64,000 nt of DNA. It comes from Simplicispira hankyongi. Lineage in GTDB: Bacteria; Pseudomonadota; Gammaproteobacteria; Burkholderiales; Burkholderiaceae_C. A program made the position numbers and the translations under genes. Under the pieces are notes generated by a model. The model saw only the letters and a program-made list of their open reading frames with translations. It did no database searches and was not told the DNA's origin. Location of the stretch: positions 1 through 64,000 of the forward strand of contig NZ_QXJC01000011.1 in NCBI RefSeq assembly GCF_003570885.1, in the 5' to 3' direction. Below, piece after piece: positions 10,496 to 63,829 of the stretch (positions are counted from its first letter, which is position 1; each line of letters starts with the position of its first letter).

Positions 10496-11317
10496 ATGAA
10501 AACCCGCTTCATCCTGATCAACACCAGCCACGCCGGCAATGTGGGCGCCACCGCGCGCGCCATGAAAACCATGGGCTTTGGCGACCTGGTGCTGGTCGCC
10601 CCCCGCTGGCCCAACGTGCTGCGGCGCGAGGAAACCATCCAGCGCGCCAGCGGTGCTCTCGACGTGCTGGAGAACGCGCGCATCGTCGCCACGCTCGACG
10701 AAGCGCTGGATGGCGTGAACCACCTCTGTGCCACCGCCATGACGCCGCGCGACTTTGGCCCGCCCACGCGTGCGCCGCGTGCGCATTTTGAATTGCTATT
10801 GAAAGGAGAGCAGCTTGCGCAGTTGGGACAAGCGCTGGAGGCTGAAAACACTTCAAACCTGGTGTTGGAGCCGCCTGCTTCTGCTGCGGGTGCGCAAAGC
10901 ACAGAGGCAGGCATCGCCTTCCTGTTTGGCTCGGAGCGTTTTGGCATGAGCAACGAAGACGTGTACCGCTGCCACGTCGCGCTCTCGATCCCCACCAACC
11001 CCAAGTTCAGCTCGCTCAACCTCGGTGCTGCGGTGCAGCTCATCGCCTACGAATGGCGCCAGGCATTGGGCGGTTTTCCCGTGTACAGCAGCGCGCCTGC
11101 GTCGCAGCAGGCCGATGCCCAGCAGGTGGCCGGCATGCTGGCGCACTGGGAGGAGGCGCTGGCCGCCATTGGTTTCCTGGACCCGGCAGCACCCAAAAAA
11201 CTGATGCCGCGCCTGAACCAGATGTTCAACCGCGCGCAGCCGACACAGGAGGAAATCCACATCCTGCGCGGTGTCGCCAAGGCCATGCTGCAGACCGCAG
11301 CCCAGGCAAAGCACTAA
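10496..11317 (+). CDS. trmJ: tRNA (Cm32/Um32) 2'-O-methyltransferase TrmJ
   Basis: A 273-residue SPOUT-fold RNA methyltransferase that methylates the ribose at position 32 of tRNA using SAM. The N-terminus [20 protein letters not shown] and the SAM-binding knot [15 protein letters not shown] with [17 protein letters not shown] are diagnostic. It is longer than the ~246-residue E. coli enzyme. The excess includes residues ~100-121 ([20 protein letters not shown]), which are encoded by an in-frame copy of the dispersed palindromic repeat just before the catalytic knot. It is divergent from suhB; cysE follows 34 bases downstream. Confidence 0.93.
10795..10858 (+). repeat. Palindromic element copy I, in frame inside trmJ
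   Basis: GCTAT, then AGCAGCTTGCGC, AAGCGCTGGAGGC and CTTCAAA follow the order and spacing of the intergenic copies. It is read in frame with no stop. Similarity is partial because the palindromes have drifted, so this copy is supported by the arrangement of blocks and not by high identity. Confidence 0.6.
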
Positions 11318-12128: not shown

Positions 12129-12142
12129 CAGCGCGCTTGTGT

Positions 12143-12207
12143 GCTCTTTTATTGAGAGCTGAAAGCGCTTAGTGTGTAAGCGCTATAGCCAGTTTTCATG
12201 ATATTTT
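12143..12207 (+). repeat. Palindromic element copy E
   Basis: Reads GCTC..GAGAGCT, then AAGCGCTTAGTGTGTAAGCGCTAT, AGCC and TTTTCATGA. It fills the 100-base gap between the convergent cysE and mog genes. The central stem (AGCGCTTA/TAAGCGCT) followed by TTTT could terminate cysE transcription. Confidence 0.75.
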
Positions 12208-12228
12208 TCGACAGTGTGGCGCGTGCGC

Positions 12229-16223: not shown

Positions 16224-18949
16224 GGGGTCTCCAGGGCGCGGGTGACCACCTCGCGCACGTCCTTGCTGAGTTTGGCATGTCCGGCCACTTGGGCAATGGC
16301 GGTATGCGCCACGCTGCGCCAGGGTTCGGCCAGCTTGCTCCAGCGGTCCAAGGCGCGCGCCAGGCGGGCGGCGACTTGCGGGTTGATGGCGTCAAGCGCG
16401 AGCACGCGGTCGGCCCAGAAGCGGTAGCCGGCGCCGTCTGCGCGGTGAAAGGCGCCAGGGTTGGCGCTGCAGTAGCTGAAGATGAGGCTGCGCGCGCGGT
16501 TCGGATTGCCGATCTGGAAGTCCGGGTGCTTCATCAGCGCCTGCACGGCGGGCAGTACGTGGCCGCCGCGATCGGGCGTGCCGGCCTGCAGGGCAAACCA
16601 TTTGTCGATGACCAGGGCGTCGTCCTTGAACAAGGCATGGAAGCGCGCCAGTGCGGCCGCGGCGTGCGGGTGGCCGCTGGTGACCAGGGCTGCAAGTGCA
16701 GCAAAGCGGTCGGTCATGTTGCCGGCATCCTTGAAGCGCTGCAGCGTTTTGCCGGGCCAGACGGCGTCACCCGTGTGCTGCGCGGCGAGGCACAGCATGG
16801 ACAGCGCCTGGCCGGCGAGGGCGCGGCGGCCGGCCGACGCCGCGTCTGGCTGGTAGGCGCCGGTGTCGTGGCTGGCTTCGTAGGCGGCTTCCCAGTCGCT
16901 GCGCAGGGCGGTGGCCAGTTGCAGGCGCATGGCTTCGCGCACCGCATGCACGCGCTGCGGGTCCACCACGTCGAGCTGCTCGGCCAGGTAGCTTTCGGAG
17001 GGCAGGCTCAGCACCAGCTCCTTGTAGGCGGCGTCGAGTTGCGGGTCGCGCAGTGTGCGGCGCAGGGCGGCGAGCAGGTCCGCGTCCATGATTTCAGCAT
17101 CCAATGTGCCTCCAGCGCTTGATGCATCTGCGCTACCAGCTATTGCATTGATAGCGCAGCGCAGCATCAGGCGCTGGCCTGCTTCCCAGCGGTTGAAGGC
17201 GTCGGTGTCGTGCGCCAGCAGCGTCAATAGCTCGGCATCGGTGTAGGCGTAGTCCAGCCGCACCGGTGCGCTGAACGAGCGCAGCAGCGAAGGCACGGGC
17301 GCGCTCGCCACGCCGATGAAGCGCAGCGTCAGGCTGGCCGCGTCGAGCACCACGGTGCGCGTGCTGGCGCCGGGGGCGGTTTCGCCTTCCATCTGCAGGG
17401 GCAGGGCGCTGCCGTCCTGTGCCAGCAGGCCCAGTTCGACGGGAATGACGAAAGGCAGCTTGCTCGGCTGGTTCGGTGTGGCTGGGCAGCTTTGGCTGAG
17501 CGTGAGGGTGTAGGTTTGCGCGGTGGCGTCGTATTCGCCTTGCGCCTTGACGCAGGGCGTGCCGGCCTGGCTGTACCAGCGTTTGAAGGCATCGAGCCGC
17601 GTGGCCAGTTCGCTGCCGGGGTTGGCGTCGGCAATCGCGGCTGCGAAGTCGTCGCAGGTGACGGCCTGGCCGTCGTGGCGCTCGAAGTACAGCTTCATGC
17701 CGCGCGCAAAGCCCTCGCGGCCCACCAGGGTGTGCATCATGCGCACCACTTCAGCACCTTTTTCGTAAATGGTGACGGTGTAGAAGTTGTTGATTTCCAC
17801 GTAGCTTTCGGGCCGTACCGGGTGCGCCATGGGGCCAGCGTCTTCGGGGAACTGCACGGTGCGCAGCACGCGCACATCCTCGATGCGCTTGACGGCGCGG
17901 GCCGAGGCGCTGCCCGCCATGTCCATGGAAAATTCCTGGTCGCGGAACACCGTCAGGCCTTCTTTCAGGCTGAGCTGGAACCAGTCGCGGCAGGTGACGC
18001 GGTTGCCGGTCCAGTTGTGGAAGTACTCGTGGCCGACCACGCTCTCGATGTTGGAAAAATCAACATCGGTGGCCGTGGCCTGGCTGGCCAGCACGTACTT
18101 GGTGTTGAAGACGTTCAGGCCCTTGTTCTCCATGGCGCCCATGTTGAAGTCGCTGGTGGCGACGATCATGAAGCGCTCCAAATCAAGGCTGAGGCCAAAG
18201 CGCGTTTCATCCCACGCGACGCTGGCCATCAGGGAATTCATCGCGTGCTCGGTCTTGCCCAGGTCGCCGGGGCGCACGTACACCTCCAGCAGATGCTCCT
18301 TGCCCGTGCGGGACGTGATGCGCTGCTGGCGCGCGACCAGTTTGCCGGCCACCAGGGCGAACAGGTAGCAGGGCTTTTTGTGCGGGTCCACCCATTTGGC
18401 GAAGTGCCGGCCGCCATCCAAGTCGCCTTGTTCCACCAGGTTGCCGTTGGAGAGCAGCACCGGGTAGGCGGCCTTGTCGGCGCGCAGCAGCACCTGGTAG
18501 CTGGCCATGACGTCTGGGCGGTCGAGGAAGTAGGTGATGCGGCGAAAGCCCTCGGCCTCGCACTGCGTGAAGAACGTGCCCTGGCTCACGTAGAGCCCCA
18601 TCAGGGCGGTGTTCTTCTCGGGCGCGCAGGTGGTGAAGATCTCCAGGTCAAAACCGGCCTCGTCCTGGGGCAGGTTTTCAAGCACCAATTGGCCTGCGTC
18701 CATGCGAAAAGACGTGCCGGCGCCGTTGACCATCACGCGCGCAAGGTTCAGCTCGTCGCCGTCGAGGCGCAGCGGCTGCGCTGGCACGTCCGGGTTGCGG
18801 CGCACGCGCATGCGGTTCAGGACGCGTGTCTTGGCCGGGTCGAGGTCGAAGGTGAGGTCTACGGTGTCGATCCACCAGGCCGGGGCCTGGTAGTCGCCGC
18901 GGTGGCGGGCGGTGGCGGGTGCCTGGCCGTCTTCGCGCAATGAAAACAT
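16220..18949 (-). CDS. pepN: Aminopeptidase N
   Basis: 909 residues of the M1 zinc metallopeptidase family, removing N-terminal residues from peptides in the cytosol. The exopeptidase motif GAMENKG and the zinc site [11 protein letters not shown] with downstream [12 protein letters not shown] are intact, followed by the Ig-like and helical C-terminal domains. It is longer than E. coli PepN (870). The extra length includes residues ~599-620 ([19 protein letters not shown]), encoded by an in-frame copy of the dispersed palindromic repeat. It starts nine bases after prfB and overlaps fbp by four. Confidence 0.96.
17091..17155 (-). repeat. Palindromic element copy J, in frame inside pepN
   Basis: On the minus strand the blocks GCTATCAATGCAATAGCTGG, GCGC, AAGCGCTGGAGGC and GAAAT match the intergenic copies in order and spacing. 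It is read in frame as part of the protein with no stop codon. The left GCTAT/ATAGC arm is well kept. Confidence 0.7.
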
Positions 18950-20063: not shown

Positions 20064-20130
20064 GGTGTTGTCTTTGGGTGTCTGGTGAGGAATCGGGCAT
20101 TTTCTCACGCGCTGCAGACAGAAGTAATTT

Positions 20131-20195
20131 GCTATTTAGAAAATAGCTGAAAACCTAGGACCAACAAGCGCTGGAGCCTTATTTTTCTCAAAAGT
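20131..20195 (+). repeat. Palindromic element copy F
   Basis: GCTATTTAGAAAATAGCTG, then a degenerated middle, AAGCGCTGGAGCC and TTATTTTTCTCAAAAG. It lies between prfB and the 3' end of the upstream-facing GGDEF-EAL gene. The left arm is intact, while the left half of the central palindrome is lost. Confidence 0.75.
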
Positions 20196-20202
20196 TTGGC
20201 CG

Positions 20203-25358: not shown

Positions 25359-25365
25359 GTCAACT

Positions 25366-25428
25366 ATTTGATAAAAATCTGCCGCTAGCGCAATACCAAT
25401 ATAGGAATACAGCTATATTTACTATAGC
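25366..25428 (-). repeat. Palindromic element copy H, reversed
   Basis: On the minus strand: GCTATAGTAAATATAGCTG, a diverged middle, GCGCTAGCGGCAG and TTTTTATCAAA. It occupies the 100-base gap between the convergent sixA and ppx genes. It is the only intergenic copy clearly in this orientation. Confidence 0.7.
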
Positions 25429-25458
25429 AATCGAGAGCTCGGATGGCGTGGAAGCGGT

Positions 25459-33686: not shown

Positions 33687-33729
33687 CGCTGTGCGGGAGT
33701 CATTCGGCTGTGATGTACTCTCACATTCA

Positions 33730-33785
33730 TAGCATGTAGCCCATATGCATAAAGCGCTAGAGGCCGATTTGATCAATTTTTTCTA
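33730..33785 (+). repeat. Palindromic element copy G, between phoB and phoR
   Basis: CATAGCATGTAGC, then CATATGCATAAAGCGCTAGAGGCC and a T-rich end. The right half is well preserved and the left half decayed. It sits in the 123-base phoB-phoR gap. Confidence 0.65.
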
Positions 33786-41680: not shown

Positions 41681-41698
41681 CGTTTGGTTTTTGAAAAA

Positions 41699-41762
41699 AT
41701 ATACGTAAAAATAGCTACTAGCGCTTATGGAGTAAGCGTTAGTAGCTATGGTTTTTGATATA
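41699..41762 (+). repeat. Palindromic element copy C
   Basis: ATAGCTACTAGCGCTTA-TGGAG-TAAGCGTTAGTAGCTAT is a near-perfect 17-base inverted repeat (41711-41749), flanked by TACGTAAAA and GGTTTTTGATA. It lies in the 107-base gap between the convergent cyclase and acyl-CoA dehydrogenase genes and would make a good bidirectional terminator. Confidence 0.85.
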
Positions 41763-41787
41763 TCTGAGGCGTACTGGGTGGTGGCCG

Positions 41788-49448: not shown

Positions 49449-49545
49449 TGGTCGTTGGCCCCTTTGGGCATGGGTGCAAGACCACCGGTAGCGAGGGCAC
49501 CTGTTTTTATCTGCCCACAGTGCGTACGCTGGGTGTGCGAAAAAC

Positions 49546-49610
49546 GCTCTTATTTATATAGCTTAAACGCTATGCTTGATAAGCGCTAGGGCCTGTTTTC
49601 TTCTTAAATT
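49546..49610 (+). repeat. Palindromic element copy D
   Basis: GCTCTTATTTATATAGCTTAAACGCTATGCTTGATAAGCGCTAGGGCCTGTTTT, ending CTTAAATT, here given in blocks: left arm 49546-49563, core 49566-49590, tail 49591-49610. It lies between convergent genes, and the TAA stop of the minus-strand hydrolase (49604-49606) is part of the tail. Confidence 0.8.
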
Positions 49611-50437
49611 CTATCGTGGCGATCCACTAGAAAATCGCGCAGCGCCGCCAGCGTTTCCTCCGGCGCTTCGGTCATTTCGTTGTGCCCCACGGGCAGCATG
49701 CGCACGGTTACCGTTTTGCCGGCTTGTTTTGCAGCGGCCACCAAAATCTGAGCTGCCTTGGGTGTCGTCATCTGGTCCTGCGCACCGAGCACGAACAGCA
49801 CGGGGCATTCCACGTTCACTATGGCCGCCTCGCCCCCGGCATACTGATCGCATGCCATGAACCCTCGGTGAAAGACATTCACCTCGGGATTGCTGGCCAA
49901 CACCCGCCGACCCAGCGCCATCTGGGCGCCAAAGACCCAGGTTCCTGGCCCGAGTGCCGAGGGTGGCGCGCACAAGGTGCTGCGGGAGTACACGTTGACC
50001 ATGCGCAGCGCTGTCTCTGGGGCATTCAGGGCCGCGTCCAGTAGGGCAGGCGACACTTTCATGGGCCACGCCGTTCCCACCAGGGCGAGATGCGTGGCGC
50101 GCGCTTTCATGCGGCTTGCCGCCTCTAGCGCAATCAGCGAGCCCCAGCTGTGCCCGACCAAGGCGGCACGCTCCACCCCCAGGGCGTCGAGCAAGGCGAT
50201 GATGAAATCCGCCGCTTCCTCCACGCTTTGGGGGGCCGCGCCGGCGCTGCGGCAATGGCCGGGCAAATCGACTGCCAGCACGTTCCAGCCATGGTTGGCC
50301 AGCCAGCGGCTCTGCATGGCCCAGACGCTGTGGTCGTTGAGCACGCCGTGGATCAAGACGGCGGTGGGTAGAGTCGGGTCGAAGCTGCGCCCGCCGGTGT
50401 AGCAATAGGTGTCGTGTCCGTTGACTGGCAAGCGCAT
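49604..50437 (-). CDS. Alpha/beta-hydrolase
   Basis: 277 residues, alpha/beta-hydrolase fold. The oxyanion region is LIHGVLNDHSVWAMQ, the nucleophile Ser sits in LVGHSWGSLIAL, the acid is likely in VLGAQDQMTTP, and the His in LPVGHNEMTEAP. The substrate is unknown. It starts two bases after the MetY-type gene, so the two are probably cotranscribed. Its last codons and stop (DRI-TAA) fall inside the tail of repeat copy D. Confidence 0.87.
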   Translation of the reverse strand: MRLPVNGHDTYCYTGGRSFDPTLPTAVLIHGVLNDHSVWAMQSRWLANHGWNVLAVDLPGHCRSAGAAPQSVEEAADFIIALLDALGVERAALVGHSWGSLIALEAASRMKARATHLALVGTAWPMKVSPALLDAALNAPETALRMVNVYSRSTLCAPPSALGPGTWVFGAQMALGRRVLASNPEVNVFHRGFMACDQYAGGEAAIVNVECPVLFVLGAQDQMTTPKAAQILVAAAKQAGKTVTVRMLPVGHNEMTEAPEETLAALRDFLVDRHDRI

Positions 50438-50439
50438 GC

Positions 50440-51741
50440 TCAGGCTCCCGCTTTTTCTGCGGCCTTCAGGGCGCGCTTGAGGTCGTCTATCAAATCGTCC
50501 ACGTCTTCCAGGCCGATGGACAGGCGAATCGTTCCTTGGGTGATGCCAGCAGCGTTCAGTGCTTCGTCGCTGAGGCGGAAGTGCGTAGTACTGGCGGGGT
50601 GAATGACCAGGCTGCGGCAGTCGCCCACGTTGGCTAGGTGGCTGAAAATTTTCAATGCTTCAATGAACTTCTTCCCTTGCTCGCGTGAGCCCTTGAGGTC
50701 GAAGCTGAAGACGGAGCCGGCGCCCCGCGGCAGCAGCCGCTGCGCCAATTGGTGGCTGGGGTGCGAGGGCAGCATCGGGTGGCCGACACGCGCCACAAAA
50801 GGGTGGCTTGCCAGGAACTCCACCACGCGCTCCGTGTTGCGCATGTGCTGCTGCATGCGCAGCGGCAGGGTTTCGATGCCTTGCAAAATCAGCCAGGCGG
50901 TGTGCGGGCTGATGCAGGCGCCGAAGTCGCGCAAGCCCTCGCGGCGCGCGCGCAACAAAAACGGACCGACTGTGCTTTCCTCGGCGAACACCATGCCGTG
51001 AAAGCCGTCGTAAGGCTCGGTCAGCTCGGGGTAGCGGCCAGAGCCTTCCCAGTCGAAACTGCCGCCATCCACCAGCACGCCGCCTATCACCGTGCCGTGC
51101 CCGCTGAGGAACTTGGTGGCGGAGTGGTACACGATGTCGGCCCCGTGTTCAAAAGGCTTCATCAGCCAGGGGGTTGTGAACGTGGAATCAACCAGCAATG
51201 GGACGCCAGCCTCGTGGGCGATGGCGCTCACGGTCGGAATGTCGAGCACGTCGAGGCCTGGATTGCCCACGGTCTCGCCAAACAGCAGGCGCGTATTGGG
51301 GCGGATGGCGGCGCGCCAGGCGTCCACATCGCCGGCCGGTACAAAGCTCGTTTCGATCCCGAAGCGGCGCAAGGTGTAATGCAAAAGATTCTGGGAGCCG
51401 CCATACAGCGCGCTGCTGGCAACGATGTGCGAGCCCGCGCCCATCAAAGTGGCAATGGCCAGATGCAGGGCTGCTTGCCCGCTGGCGGTGGCCAGAGCCC
51501 CCACGCCGCCTTCCAGGGCCGCCATGCGCTGCTCCAGTACGGCCGTGGTGGGATTGCTGATGCGCGAGTACACGTGGCCGCCGCGTTCCATGTTGAACAG
51601 CGAAGCCGCGTGGTCGCTGGAGTCAAAAACGAAAGACGTGGTGAGGTGAATGGGAACAGCGCGTGCGCCGGTGGCAGGGTCGGGTATGGCGCCTGCGTGC
51701 AGGGCCAGGGTGTCGAAGCCAGGGTCGGCGTAACCGGGCAT
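50440..51741 (-). CDS. metY: O-acetylhomoserine sulfhydrylase-type PLP enzyme
   Basis: 433 residues of the Cys/Met gamma-family. The N-terminus GFDTLALHAGAIPDPATGARAVP, the PLP-phosphate region ASGQAALHLA and the Schiff-base Lys in YHSATKFLSGHG are present. The length and extra segment after the Lys fit MetY, which makes homocysteine from O-acetylhomoserine and sulfide; O-succinylhomoserine use (MetZ) is the alternative. ATG 51741 has GGAGACCC upstream. The frame extends upstream through the divergent CBS gene's leader without a start signal. Confidence 0.9.
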   Translation of the reverse strand: MPGYADPGFDTLALHAGAIPDPATGARAVPIHLTTSFVFDSSDHAASLFNMERGGHVYSRISNPTTAVLEQRMAALEGGVGALATASGQAALHLAIATLMGAGSHIVASSALYGGSQNLLHYTLRRFGIETSFVPAGDVDAWRAAIRPNTRLLFGETVGNPGLDVLDIPTVSAIAHEAGVPLLVDSTFTTPWLMKPFEHGADIVYHSATKFLSGHGTVIGGVLVDGGSFDWEGSGRYPELTEPYDGFHGMVFAEESTVGPFLLRARREGLRDFGACISPHTAWLILQGIETLPLRMQQHMRNTERVVEFLASHPFVARVGHPMLPSHPSHQLAQRLLPRGAGSVFSFDLKGSREQGKKFIEALKIFSHLANVGDCRSLVIHPASTTHFRLSDEALNAAGITQGTIRLSIGLEDVDDLIDDLKRALKAAEKAGA

Positions 51742-52370: not shown

Positions 52371-53468
52371 ATGAGCGGCAACACATTCGGCACCCTTTTC
52401 GCAGTCACCAACTTTGGTGAATCCCACGGCCCGGCCATTGGCTGCGTGATCGACGGCTGCCCGCCTGGCATGCCTTTGTGCGAGGCCGACATCCAGGCCG
52501 ACCTGGACCGGCGCCGTCCCGGCACCAGTCGCCACGTCACACAGCGCGCCGAGCCCGATGCGGTGGAAATCCTCTCGGGGGTCTACGAAGGCCTGACCAC
52601 CGGAACGCCGATTGCCCTGCTGATTCGCAACACCGACCAGCGCAGCAAGGACTATGGCGATATCGCCCAGCGCTTTCGCCCTGGACATGCCGACTACACC
52701 TACTGGCACAAGTACGGCGTGCGCGATCCGCGCGGTGGCGGGCGCTCGTCGGCTCGGCTGACGGCGCCCACCGTGGCGGCCGGCGCCGTGGCGCGAAAGT
52801 GGCTGGCCGCGCAGTTCGGCACCCAGGTGCGCGCCTGCATGAGCCAACTGGGCGAGCTCGACATTGGCTTTGAGTCCTGGGAGCACGTGGCGCAGAACCC
52901 GTTTTTTGCTCCAGTGGCCGATGTGCAGCGTTTGGAGGCCTATATGGACGCGCTGCGCAAGGCGGGCGACTCCTGCGGTGCGCGCATCCGCGTGCAGGCC
53001 ACCGGCGTTCCCATTGGGCTGGGCGAACCGATTTACGACAAGCTCGACGCCGACATTGCCTGGGCCATGATGGGCTTGAACGCCGTCAAGGGCGTGGAAA
53101 TCGGCGCCGGTTTTGCCAGCGCCGCGCAGCGGGGCACCGTGCATGGCGATTCGCTCTCACCCGAGGGCTTTCGCAGCAACCATGCGGGTGGGGTGCTGGG
53201 CGGCATCAGCACGGGGCAGGACATCGAGGTGCAGATCGCCATCAAGCCAACCAGTTCGATCTTGAGCCCACGCGAATCCATCGACACAGCCGGGCAGTCG
53301 GTCCAGGTCAGCACCCGCGGCCGCCACGACCCCTGTGTGGGCATACGGGCGGCGCCCATTGCCGAGGCACTGCTGGCGCTGGTGCTGATGGACCATGCCC
53401 TGCGCCACCGCGCGCAGTGCGGCGACGTGCACCAAAGCGTGGCGCCGATTGCAGCCGAAGCCCCTTGA
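52371..53468 (+). CDS. aroC: Chorismate synthase
   Basis: 365 residues. It converts EPSP to chorismate with reduced FMN, the last common step of aromatic synthesis. Family blocks are [35 protein letters not shown]-type ([15 protein letters not shown]), [12 protein letters not shown] and the C-terminal [18 protein letters not shown] with the conserved Arg and His. The length is standard. Confidence 0.96.
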
Positions 53469-53472
53469 ATTC

Positions 53473-53537
53473 GCTATAGAAAAAATAGCTTCTAGCGCTT
53501 ACTGGATAAGCGCTAGAGGCCAAAAAACCTTAAAATT
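53473..53537 (+). repeat. Palindromic element copy A (best preserved)
   Basis: Left arm GCTATAGAAAAAATAGCT (53473-53490); core TAGCGCTTA-CTGGA-TAAGCGCTA (53493-53515); then GAGGCC, a run of six A and CTTAAAATTTT. It lies in the 101-base gap between convergent aroC and nrdR. Read on the minus strand the core stem is followed within a few bases by six T, so it may terminate nrdR. Confidence 0.88.
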
Positions 53538-53569
53538 TTCGCACTCTTGAGCGCGGGGCAAGCGCTGGC

Positions 53570-54019
53570 TCAGCGCCGCACCTCGTCCACCAGGTGCTTG
53601 AACTCGTCGATGTCCTCGAAGCTGCGGTACACGCTGGCGTAGCGGATGTAGGCCACCTGATCGAGCTTCTTGAGTTCGCGCATGACCAGTTCGCCAATGC
53701 GGCTGGACGCGATCTCGCGCTGCCCCAGGCTGAGGAGCTGTTCTTCGATGCGTTCTATGGCCGCGTCCACCTGCGTCGTGCTTACCGGGCGCTTGCGCAG
53801 CGCAATGGCAAACGAGCCGAGCAGCTTGGCATGGGCGTACTCGGTGCGTCGCCCGTCTTTCTTGACGACGACAGGAAAGCTGACTTCAGGCTTCTCGTAG
53901 GTCGTGAAGCGCTTGCCACAGGCCAGGCAGCGGCGCCGGCGGCGGATGAAGTCGCCGTCTTCCGCGACCCGCGTCTCGGCCACCTGGGTGTCGAGATGGC
54001 CGCAGAAGGGGCACTTCAT
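53570..54019 (-). CDS. nrdR: Transcriptional repressor NrdR
   Basis: 149 residues. A zinc ribbon (CPFCG...CLACGKRF) is followed by an ATP-cone domain (~49-139). NrdR senses dATP/ATP and represses ribonucleotide reductase genes; its targets are not in the window. It starts ten bases after glyA, the usual betaproteobacterial order, so it shares the ZTP-controlled transcript. Confidence 0.96.
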
Positions 54020-55292: not shown

Positions 55293-55314
55293 TTGTGTCC
55301 CTTGAATCAAGGGC

Positions 55315-55448
55315 TGCCCAGGCGAACGGCGGAACGCAGCGGACGGGGGCCCGTGCGGCACGCTTCCCGGTGGTTCACAAGGACAGCGCCTTGCTGGTTT
55401 CCACGTCAGCGACGGCCCTTGGGGCCGCGCCTATCGCCAGTCGCGTAC
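55315..55448 (-). ncRNA. ZTP/ZMP (pfl) riboswitch upstream of glyA
   Basis: On the minus strand the leader reads GCGACTGGCGATAGGC (from ~55445), then GACGTGGAAACCA, CCACCGGGAAGCGT and finally CCGTTCGCCTGGGCA (55329-55315). These are the conserved blocks of the pfl motif, including the 3' CCGUUCGCCUGGGCA that forms the ligand pocket and pseudoknot. The class senses the purine intermediates ZMP and ZTP, which accumulate when 10-formyltetrahydrofolate is short, and activates one-carbon genes such as glyA. It ends 38 bases before the start codon. Confidence 0.9.
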
Positions 55449-55483
55449 CCCGCGAGTTTACCTGAGACCCTGGGCCGACTTGC

Positions 55484-59623: not shown

Positions 59624-59708
<85 letters not shown>

Positions 59709-59813: not shown

Positions 59814-59898
<85 letters not shown>

Positions 59899-62230: not shown

Positions 62231-62258
62231 AGCGCAGACCTCCGTTTGCGCACGTTTC

Positions 62259-62324
62259 GCTATATTTTTAGGAGCTGCTAGCGCATATGGGATAAGCGCT
62301 AGTGCCTATTTTTACTTAAAATTT
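62259..62324 (+). repeat. Palindromic element copy B
   Basis: GCTATATTTTTAGGAGCTGC, then TAGCGC-ATATGGGATAA-GCGCTA, GTGCC, TATTTTTAC and TTAAAATTT. It fills the gap between convergent rnr and nnr. On the plus strand the core stem plus TTTTT makes a plausible rnr terminator. The nnr stop lies in its tail. Confidence 0.85.
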
Positions 62325-63829
62325 GGCGCGCAGGCCAATGCGCTGGCGACCAAGCTTGTGCCGCCGGGCCAGCCGTCGGCCAGGCGGCCATGCACGAACA
62401 CCGCATGGCGCGCCGCGGCGAGTGGGGCGTCGCCAGCGGCAAGGCGCGCGCCCACCATGCCGGCCAGTACATCGCCCGTGCCCGCCGTGGCCAATCGGGC
62501 GTTCCCCGTGGGGTTGATGAAGGAGGGGGCTTCCCCGGGGGGCGCCACGATGCTGCCCGAGCCCTTGAGCACACAAACGCAGCCAAAGCGCTGCGCCAGC
62601 GTGTGCGCTGCGGTGAGTCGGTCGGCCTGCACGCTGGCAGCGCTGCAGCCCAGCAGGCGGGCGGCTTCCAGTGGGTGGGGCGTCAGGATGGTGGGCAGGC
62701 CGTGTGCCGCGCGCTGGGCCAGGGCGGTTTGCAGCTTGGTGTCGCGTGCGATGGCATTCAGCGCATCGGCATCCAGCACCAGGCGAGCGGCCTGAGTGAG
62801 TACGGGCGGCAGCACCTCGATTACCGCTTCGCCGCCGCCGCAGCCGCAGACCACCGTCAGTTGGCCCAGTTCCAGGGCCTCGAAGTGGCGCTGCATCAGT
62901 TCAGGCGTCGAGTTGGCCGCATGCAATGCGCCGCCGTCCAACAGGGCCACCAGCACCCGCCCGGCACCTGCGTGCAATGCGGCCGTGGCGGCGAGCAGGG
63001 CCGCGCCTTCCATGCCCATGCCGCGTCGCGCCAGGCCTTCGCCGCCGACGATGGCAACGTCGCCAAAGCTGCCCTTGTGGCTGGCGTGGGGGCGGGGGCT
63101 GTGTTCGGGCGGGCCGGCCAGCCAGGCGCAGGCACGGGCATCCTCTGGAGAGACGCCCAATCGATCGAGCCATACGGTACCAGCGGCATCGCGCCCTTGT
63201 GCAGTGAAAAGGCCGGGTTTGAGCGTGAGGAGCGAGAGGGTGTGGCAGAGCGCCCCCGGGGGGATACCCGGCGCGAATCCTTCTGCCCAGGCGCCGGTGT
63301 CGGTCTGCAGGCCGCTGGGCACATCCACACACAGCAAGGGGGCTGGGCCGGCGCGCAACTGGTGCAGCAGGGCGCGCCAACGCTCAGGCGGCGGGCGCGA
63401 AGCATCCCCGGGCGCAAGGCCAATGCCCAGCAGCGCGTCGATGCACAAGTCGCGCTCGGTCAGGGCCGTAGCGGGGCCGTCGGCAAAGCACACGCCGGCG
63501 CTGCGCGCGCGCTCAAGCGAGCGGCGTGCGTCGGGCGGCACGTGGGTATCGTTGCCCAACCAGGTCACCGTGACCTGGCGGGTGGGGTTGTGCAGGTGCA
63601 GGGCGGCTTCCAGCCCGTCGCCGCCGTTGTTGCCTGGCCCGCAGACGATCCACACCTTGCGCGCGTGCGGCGCGAGCGCCAGGGCGAGCTGCGCGGTGGC
63701 CAGGCCTGCGCGCTGCATCAGCGTGTGTTCGGGCAGACCCGCCGCTGCGGCCTGTTCCAGGGCGCGCGTGGCGGCAAGGTCGTGCAGGGCGTGGGGCCGG
63801 TCAGGCAGGATGCGCAGCATGCGCGCCAT
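62312..63829 (-). CDS. nnr: Bifunctional NAD(P)HX epimerase/dehydratase
   Basis: 505 residues. The N-terminal epimerase domain has ALEQAAAAGLPEHTLMQRAG and VCGPGNNGGDGLEAALHL; the C-terminal ADP-dependent dehydratase (ribokinase-like) has GSFGDVAIVGG, LTPHPLEAARLLG and the phosphate/catalytic loop NARLATAGTGDVLAGMVGA. The enzyme repairs hydrated NADH and NADPH. The final residues NFK and the TAA stop are encoded in the tail of repeat copy B. Confidence 0.94.
   Translation of the reverse strand: MARMLRILPDRPHALHDLAATRALEQAAAAGLPEHTLMQRAGLATAQLALALAPHARKVWIVCGPGNNGGDGLEAALHLHNPTRQVTVTWLGNDTHVPPDARRSLERARSAGVCFADGPATALTERDLCIDALLGIGLAPGDASRPPPERWRALLHQLRAGPAPLLCVDVPSGLQTDTGAWAEGFAPGIPPGALCHTLSLLTLKPGLFTAQGRDAAGTVWLDRLGVSPEDARACAWLAGPPEHSPRPHASHKGSFGDVAIVGGEGLARRGMGMEGAALLAATAALHAGAGRVLVALLDGGALHAANSTPELMQRHFEALELGQLTVVCGCGGGEAVIEVLPPVLTQAARLVLDADALNAIARDTKLQTALAQRAAHGLPTILTPHPLEAARLLGCSAASVQADRLTAAHTLAQRFGCVCVLKGSGSIVAPPGEAPSFINPTGNARLATAGTGDVLAGMVGARLAAGDAPLAAARHAVFVHGRLADGWPGGTSLVASALACAPNFK

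Follow-up and report, generated by a model that had tools for sequence, protein, structure and literature searches.

A dispersed 70-bp repeat with a slowly changing core at gene 3' ends in Simplicispira hankyongi and related Comamonadaceae

Results

The locus and the copies in the window

We analyzed a 64,000-nt stretch of Simplicispira hankyongi contig NZ_QXJC01000011.1 (the window), which belongs to a 3.71-Mb genome. The genes for chorismate synthase and NrdR, assigned by Pfam, converge here on a sequence element of ~70 bp, and further copies lie in other gaps and within two genes (Table 1). We built a model, R1, from 37 copies of the element and ran it on the window with filters off and E up to 10. 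It returned 15 matches, which represent ten distinct copies and five opposite-strand echoes. Seven of the ten belong to the training set and match by construction, while the copies at 33714, 17089 and 10792 were matched though they lie outside it. The first-pass annotation of this DNA had listed ten such sites and, in addition, two in-gene copies for which it gave no coordinates; R1 recovered eight of the ten sites as well as two in-gene copies, but matched neither 15012 nor 56563 at E up to 10. Four Rfam matches in the window reached the gathering level (three tRNAs and one ZTP riboswitch), none of them on an element copy, and the best Rfam match at 53400-53620 had an E-value of 0.82, far under its gathering score.

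Table 1. Copies of the element and other features located in the window
Feature	Position	Strand	Score and remarks	In R1 training set
Copy within SpoU-family methyltransferase gene	10792..10861	+	R1 40.4 bits	no
Element copy, convergent gap	12140..12209	+	R1 63.2 bits	yes
Copy within M1-family aminopeptidase gene	17089..17158	-	R1 42.6 bits	no
Element copy, co-directional gap	20128..20197	+	R1 54.4 bits	yes
Element copy, convergent gap	25362..25431	-	R1 46.8 bits	yes
Element copy, co-directional gap	33714..33783	+	R1 50.3 bits	no
Element copy, convergent gap, near-symmetric	41695..41764	-	R1 58.2 bits on -, 46.8 on +	yes
Element copy, convergent gap, overlapping end of 49604-50437 gene	49543..49612	+	R1 49.0 bits	yes
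Element copy, convergent, between chorismate synthase and nrdR	53470..53539	+	R1 76.2 bits	yes
ZMP/ZTP riboswitch match upstream of serine hydroxymethyltransferase gene	55309..55454	-	39.5 bits; gathering score 39	
tRNA-Leu(CAG) gene	59624..59708	-	near-identical to the next, 190 bp start to start	
tRNA-Leu(CAG) gene	59814..59898	-		
Element copy, convergent gap	62256..62325	+	R1 71.7 bits	yes

Sequence and copy number of the element

The consensus of 102 copies of length 70 that scored at least 40 bits is ATTGCTATTAAATTAATAGCTGCTAGCGCTTATCGAATAAGCGCTAGAGGCCAATTTTACTTAAAATTTT. Its core consists of ATAGCT, two AGCGCT boxes 15 bp apart, GGC and flanking AT tracts, and column information dropped sharply beyond 70 bp in the 31 copies that we inspected. 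As sequence, the two-palindrome layout described in the first-pass annotation was correct. Its GCTAT..ATAGC arms, however, are often unpaired (columns 4-20 pair in 57 of the 102 copies and columns 7-17 in 58), and its T-run is weak.

The dispersed repeat is real. A strict pattern had 92 exact matches in the genome, 47 on one strand and 45 on the other, and the reversed control had 0; all 92 were 32 nt long with spacers of 3 and 11, despite permitted spacers of 2-5 and 7-15. R1 identified 127 non-redundant copies in a sampled 864 kb, from which we extrapolated a copy number of roughly 550 for the genome. When 150 of 1647 first-look candidates from the genome were scored with R1, all 150 matched. 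The mean GC content of the element is 39% (range 29-53%, 102 copies) and the copies are almost always single, with one of 124 neighbour spacings under 200 bp. The core word AAGCGCTAG occurred 65 of 69 times inside elements; the four occurrences outside compare with 4.7 expected, so that core words outside the 70-bp element are at chance level.

Placement relative to genes

Genes were called with a purpose-written caller. Of the 127 copies in the sampled 864 kb, 99 were intergenic; convergent gaps contained 34 of these, co-directional gaps 63 and divergent gaps 2. The remaining 28 were genic or at a sequence edge; with a retrained version of the caller, 26 were genic. Genic copies scored lower, with a median of 47 bits against 58 bits for the others (p = 4e-4). 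When 99 elements were dropped at random on intergenic bases in 20,000 trials, 14.8 fell in convergent gaps (sd 3.5, maximum 31) and 20.6 in divergent gaps (minimum 6). The enrichment at convergent gene ends proposed in the first-pass annotation was thus confirmed over random placement, with 34 observed against 14.8 expected, but there was no excess over co-directional gaps per gene 3' end (34 of 210 vs 63 of 506, p = 0.19). Since convergent and co-directional occupancy were alike, the rule is better put as at 3' ends than as at convergent junctions. In the window itself our caller found nine convergent junctions, not the 11 counted earlier, and six of the nine hold a copy. The simplest placement rule is that the element lies after a gene and rarely in front of one only.

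We then measured distances in 52 co-directional gaps that each contained a single copy scoring 38 bits or more. The element starts a median of 5.5 nt past the upstream stop codon and ends 30 nt before the next gene; it was nearer to the upstream stop in 38 gaps and to the next gene in 12, with 2 ties (p = 3e-4), and it overlapped the end of the upstream gene in 19 of the 52. Orientation in the co-directional gaps was even, with 34 copies in the same and 29 in the opposite direction.

Age and conservation

The congener G011 (median protein identity 89%) shares 343 conserved junctions with the S. hankyongi genome (G000). At fifty of these junctions at least one of the two genomes has the element. 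Both carry it at 37, in the same orientation in 37 of 37, while 8 junctions have it in S. hankyongi only and 5 in G011 only. Gap lengths were nearly equal at five of the eight S. hankyongi-only junctions, suggesting decay rather than absence. We propose that the element is old and mostly vertically inherited.

For 39 S. hankyongi copies, aligned to the orthologous G011 gap by sequence alone and with gaps counted as changes, we found that consensus bases present in the S. hankyongi copy were kept in G011 at 93% in the core, 84% in the middle and 73% in the variable columns. The bootstrap difference between core and variable columns was 0.16-0.24, and the gradient was present in G/C and A/T columns separately. 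Intergenic sequence flanking the orthologous copies was 77-79% identical. Whole-copy gene conversion as the cause of the slow core was ruled out, since the variable columns were 68% alike between orthologues and 37% alike between random paralogues. The slow core may reflect purifying selection, in copies that were chosen by high score in the S. hankyongi genome.

Distribution across the genus and family

Copies were found in 20 of 23 other genomes of the genus. The remaining three (G002, G005 and G007) had none at E 1e-8, and in 400 kb of G002 there was no R1 match at E up to 10. In a midpoint-rooted 8-gene tree these three form a clade nested among element-bearing genomes (support 0.996). The called coding density of the G002 sample (400 kb, L299-L318) was 0.786, as compared to 0.887 in G000 (GC 64.8%). 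For the copy within the SpoU-family methyltransferase gene, R1 matched at the corresponding position of the gene in 11 of 20 congener loci fetched. This copy encodes a variable linker (..ALEAEN.. in S. hankyongi), and the linker is unrelated in G002 and G007 and shorter in G005.

A family-wide sample of 200 genomes from 141 genera was scanned with stricter filters, scoring 25 candidates in each genome. Matches turned up in 46 of the genomes and 37 of the genera, whereas 0 of 16 genomes from other families of the order had the element. The carriers among the matches listed include Acidovorax, Giesbergeria, Comamonas, Extensimonas, Paenacidovorax and Rhodoferax, and the best long match to the S. 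hankyongi sample among the listed loci was a Giesbergeria MAG (91% over 4.7 kb). A search of phages returned one record. Six IMG/VR viral contigs (L152-L157) had one strict copy each; these are perhaps prophage edges or captured host DNA.

One lineage-specific copy was found in G001 (L089), at a junction between tightly packed genes that is orthologous to positions 50437-50440 of the window. The copy overlaps the downstream start codon. In 15 other genomes of the genus, including that of S. hankyongi, the gap at this junction is 3 bp or less, indicating that insertion does happen. No target-site duplication was obvious by eye in this one comparison of a filled and an empty site.

The Y1 transposase

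Mobilisation by a REP-associated (RAYT) transposase had been considered in the first-pass annotation, and a search for such a gene did find one Y1 transposase in the S. hankyongi genome. Its 7.4-kb locus has no element copy. We scanned 20 Y1 loci, 17 of them in element-bearing genomes. A match was present at the Y1 3' end in three of the 20, one of them weak, which is close to the background of 12-16% of 3' ends; one locus had a match ~100 nt upstream of Y1, and none of the 20 had matches on both sides. The Y1 gene is also kept in the element-free congeners. The gene is thus not linked to the element within the genus, and mobilisation by it is not borne out, given that Y1 is unflanked and that 37 of the 50 junctions are shared. 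In the family sample Y1 was present in 38 of 46 genomes with the element and in 93 of 154 without it (p = 0.005). This association is weak, and it leaves room for a role of Y1 in the past spread of the element. Two genomes given as 100% complete (G134 and G234) each had 17 element matches and lacked any Y1 hit at E 1e-5, which argues against a need for Y1.

Pairing within the element

We compared paired counts with the independent-column expectation at 20 candidate pairs, using 102 S. hankyongi and 81 G011 copies, and found that the two agreed. No pair was above shuffles at p < 0.05 (lowest 0.056), and an earlier count on 37 copies likewise gave no support for RNA structure. At columns 30-40, for example, the counts were TA 57, AA 27, TT 10 and AT 6, and mispairing occurred in roughly a quarter to two fifths of the copies at columns 23-47 to 26-44, 30-40, 31-39 and 32-38. 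Since no pair covaried, the visible constraint is on sequence. Taken together, the lack of covariation and the even orientation favour a double-stranded site over an RNA, whether structure or sequence. At seven of the 20 pairs in S. hankyongi one side is invariant among pairable bases, the shuffle sd is 0 and the count cannot change. These seven pairs leave room for an RNA stem and thereby count against a DNA site, and the near-invariant mid-stem pairs are uninformative either way. The hairpin was predicted at -13.1 kcal/mol, as compared to -6.6 kcal/mol for mononucleotide shuffles.

Terminators with and without the element

A lax first terminator scan was set aside because it was positive in 32 of 89 divergent gaps, and a stricter rule was used. 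The strict rule was met by 10 of 102 copies on the plus strand, 19 on the minus strand and 28 on either, and a loose rule by 29, 34 and 51, respectively; of shuffled plus strands, 2 met the strict and 6 the loose rule. In the 8 nt that follow the stem, T occurred on average 3.8 and 3.9 times on the two strands. The strict rule was not met more often at gene 3' ends with an element than at ends lacking one (10 of 94 vs 30 of 316, p = 0.70).

The commonest intergenic 9-mer in the element-free G002 was GGCTTTTTT, while the commonest intergenic words in the element-rich G000 and G011 were the element's own. Strict terminators were found at 19 of 42 convergent ends in G002, as compared to 18 of 128 in G000 (p = 6e-5) and 17 of 128 in G011 (p = 4e-5); G005 and G007 alone had them at 3 of 12. 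At convergent ends, ordinary terminators are thus about three times as common in G002, whose GC content is also different (57.6% vs 64.8% and 63.8% in the element-rich pair). We regard this as a lead and not as proof, since the contrast is confounded by GC and depends mainly on G002. The spreading terminator suggested in the first-pass annotation finds partial support in the stable hairpin and in this contrast; speaking against it, the stem lacks covariation and no more than 28 of the 102 copies conform to the strict rule on at least one strand.

The start of DUF1010

In antisense, the element has an open frame that translates to a sequence like ..FLASSAYPVSARSYFF.., and this frame corresponds to positions ~1-26 of Pfam DUF1010 (PF06231). 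Three of five antisense fragments matched the start of this family weakly, the best at 19.2 bits with a cut-off of 25. The DUF1010 model hit 69 places in the S. hankyongi genome at E up to 1, two of them above the cut-off; 11 of 14 control genomes were also positive at this lax level, none above the cut-off. The sampled regions contain 14 of the 69 places, and 13 of these were antisense on an element copy, including that at 53470 (53470-53535 of the window, minus strand). The DUF1010 gene in the class 1 integron of plasmid R751 (L267:1356-1646) scored 108.8 bits and contains an antisense R1 match of 33.8 bits. A plasmid search for the element gave 55 records, and a DUF1010 gene lay under 16 of the 20 matches listed. 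Judging from these matches, Pfam DUF1010 appears to begin with the translated antisense strand of an element copy, so that the start of this domain of unknown function, which is annotated in resistance integrons, would be explained as a translated repeat. DUF1010 is a protein annotation and not a DNA family, and its C-terminal part is not element. The DUF1010 cassette of class 1 integrons, which we take to be orfD, may have originated in a genome of the Comamonadaceae type.

Relation to described repeats

The accessible text of one paper (PMC5217627) gives a 16-bp motif pair, GCTTAT(N)5AAGCG, in Acidovorax ebreus TPSY, with no function stated there. The motif has 114 copies, generally within 50 bp of gene ends, and 107 are intergenic (44 convergent, 4 divergent and 59 co-oriented). 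It is the reverse complement of the element core CGCTT N5 ATAAGC, which has two exact matches in the window against 0.03 expected, and our element likewise carries the motif, is mainly intergenic and is commoner in convergent than in divergent gaps. A Polaromonas motif in the same table, ATAGCT(N)22CAAAAG, may be a relative. The finding is therefore partly in print as far as the core is concerned. The full element, its orthology and age, selection or constraint, covariation and RAYT tests and an element-free clade do not appear in the accessible text and are added here. Our search of the open-access literature, as far as its texts were accessible, found no function for the element.

Like REP, BIME and REPIN sequences, the element has hundreds of palindromic, mainly intergenic copies, in agreement with the REP-like character suggested in the first-pass annotation: it lies at 3' ends and avoids divergent gaps (2 of 99), and hence promoters, though 26 of 127 copies are genic. 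The copies of our element are, in addition, mostly inherited vertically. According to the accessible parts of the reports, REPs and BIMEs with a RAYT have a palindrome preceded on its 5' side by a conserved tetranucleotide of the GTAG type (PMC8266576, PMC2817692), whereas the 102-copy consensus has none of GTAG, GTGG and GGAG on either strand. Stenotrophomonas REPs keep their palindrome by complementary changes, and the rayt gene is flanked by two inverted REPs (PMC2817692, accessible part). Our element, in contrast, had no detectable compensatory changes in 102 and 81 copies, with the seven insensitive pairs noted above, no flanking of Y1 on both sides and no clustered inverted pairs. The Beta-proteobacterial repeat element (BRE) is also dispersed and mainly intergenic in Betaproteobacteria, including Comamonadaceae; the accessible description (PMC3110155) gives ~90 bp, an average GC of 69% in Bordetella, sometimes tandem copies and at most 29 per genome. 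Compared by description, our element differs from BRE in length, GC content and arrangement, being 70 bp long, 39% GC on average and almost always single, with 127 copies in 864 kb, and we rejected identity with BRE on these grounds.

Discussion

We favour the reading, to which we give a probability of about 0.4, that a protein binds the element as a DNA site at gene ends. The element would be a dispersed double-stranded site directly after stop codons, whose core would be recognised as sequence, most likely by a putative dimeric protein, DNA-binding or nucleoid-associated. With the protein bound, the site would keep neighbouring transcription units apart, either by stopping or slowing read-through RNA polymerase from either direction or by a topological effect such as has reportedly been proposed for REP/BIME sites. 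The protein, the effect on transcription and selection behind the slow core are what we infer; the genic copies, about a fifth of the total, are awkward for a strong polymerase block. A more specific version makes the element a genome-wide gene-end insulator in one lineage of Comamonadaceae, which would have left much of its gene-end separation to this site; the putative protein-bound site would block polymerase both ways and partly replace terminators, all copies being lost together with the protein. We consider this version rather improbable as it stands.

The main competitor is an RNA hairpin, i.e. a bidirectional terminator or a structure that stabilises 3' ends, which would have spread as a repeat and taken the place of ordinary terminators. 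The hairpin, stable on both strands and bordered by AT tracts on either side, the loose- and strict-rule counts above those of shuffles, the placement at 3' ends and the smaller number of ordinary terminators in element-rich genomes would all fit with it. We nevertheless find it doubtful, given the absence of covariation, the mispairing at several stem columns, a T content of less than half in the 8 nt that follow and the failure of the strict rule to be commoner at element-bearing 3' ends. It is unlikely, too, that the element is a selfish REP- or MITE-like repeat without host function, tolerated at 3' ends after spread by a past Y1 or other transposase. The REP-like placement, the G001 insertion, the copies inside genes, the patchy distribution in the family and the weak family-wide Y1 association point that way, while a core that changes more slowly than the rest of orthologous copies, an orientation kept at every shared site (13 other junctions have the element in one genome only), the single copies and an unflanked Y1 gene that is also present in element-free congeners point away from it. 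RAYT as a partner is unsupported within the genus. Neisserial uptake sequences also have hundreds of copies near gene ends, and we considered a short DNA-uptake-type signal within a longer context; we rejected it as very improbable, since AAGCGCTAG is at chance level outside an element that is long and structured.

A core kept as sequence at several hundred 3' ends, unlinked to a RAYT within the genus and lacking an RNA-pairing signature, points to an as yet undescribed gene-end function in a common environmental family. The genus itself offers a natural comparison, between congeners estimated at 550 copies and others in which none were found.
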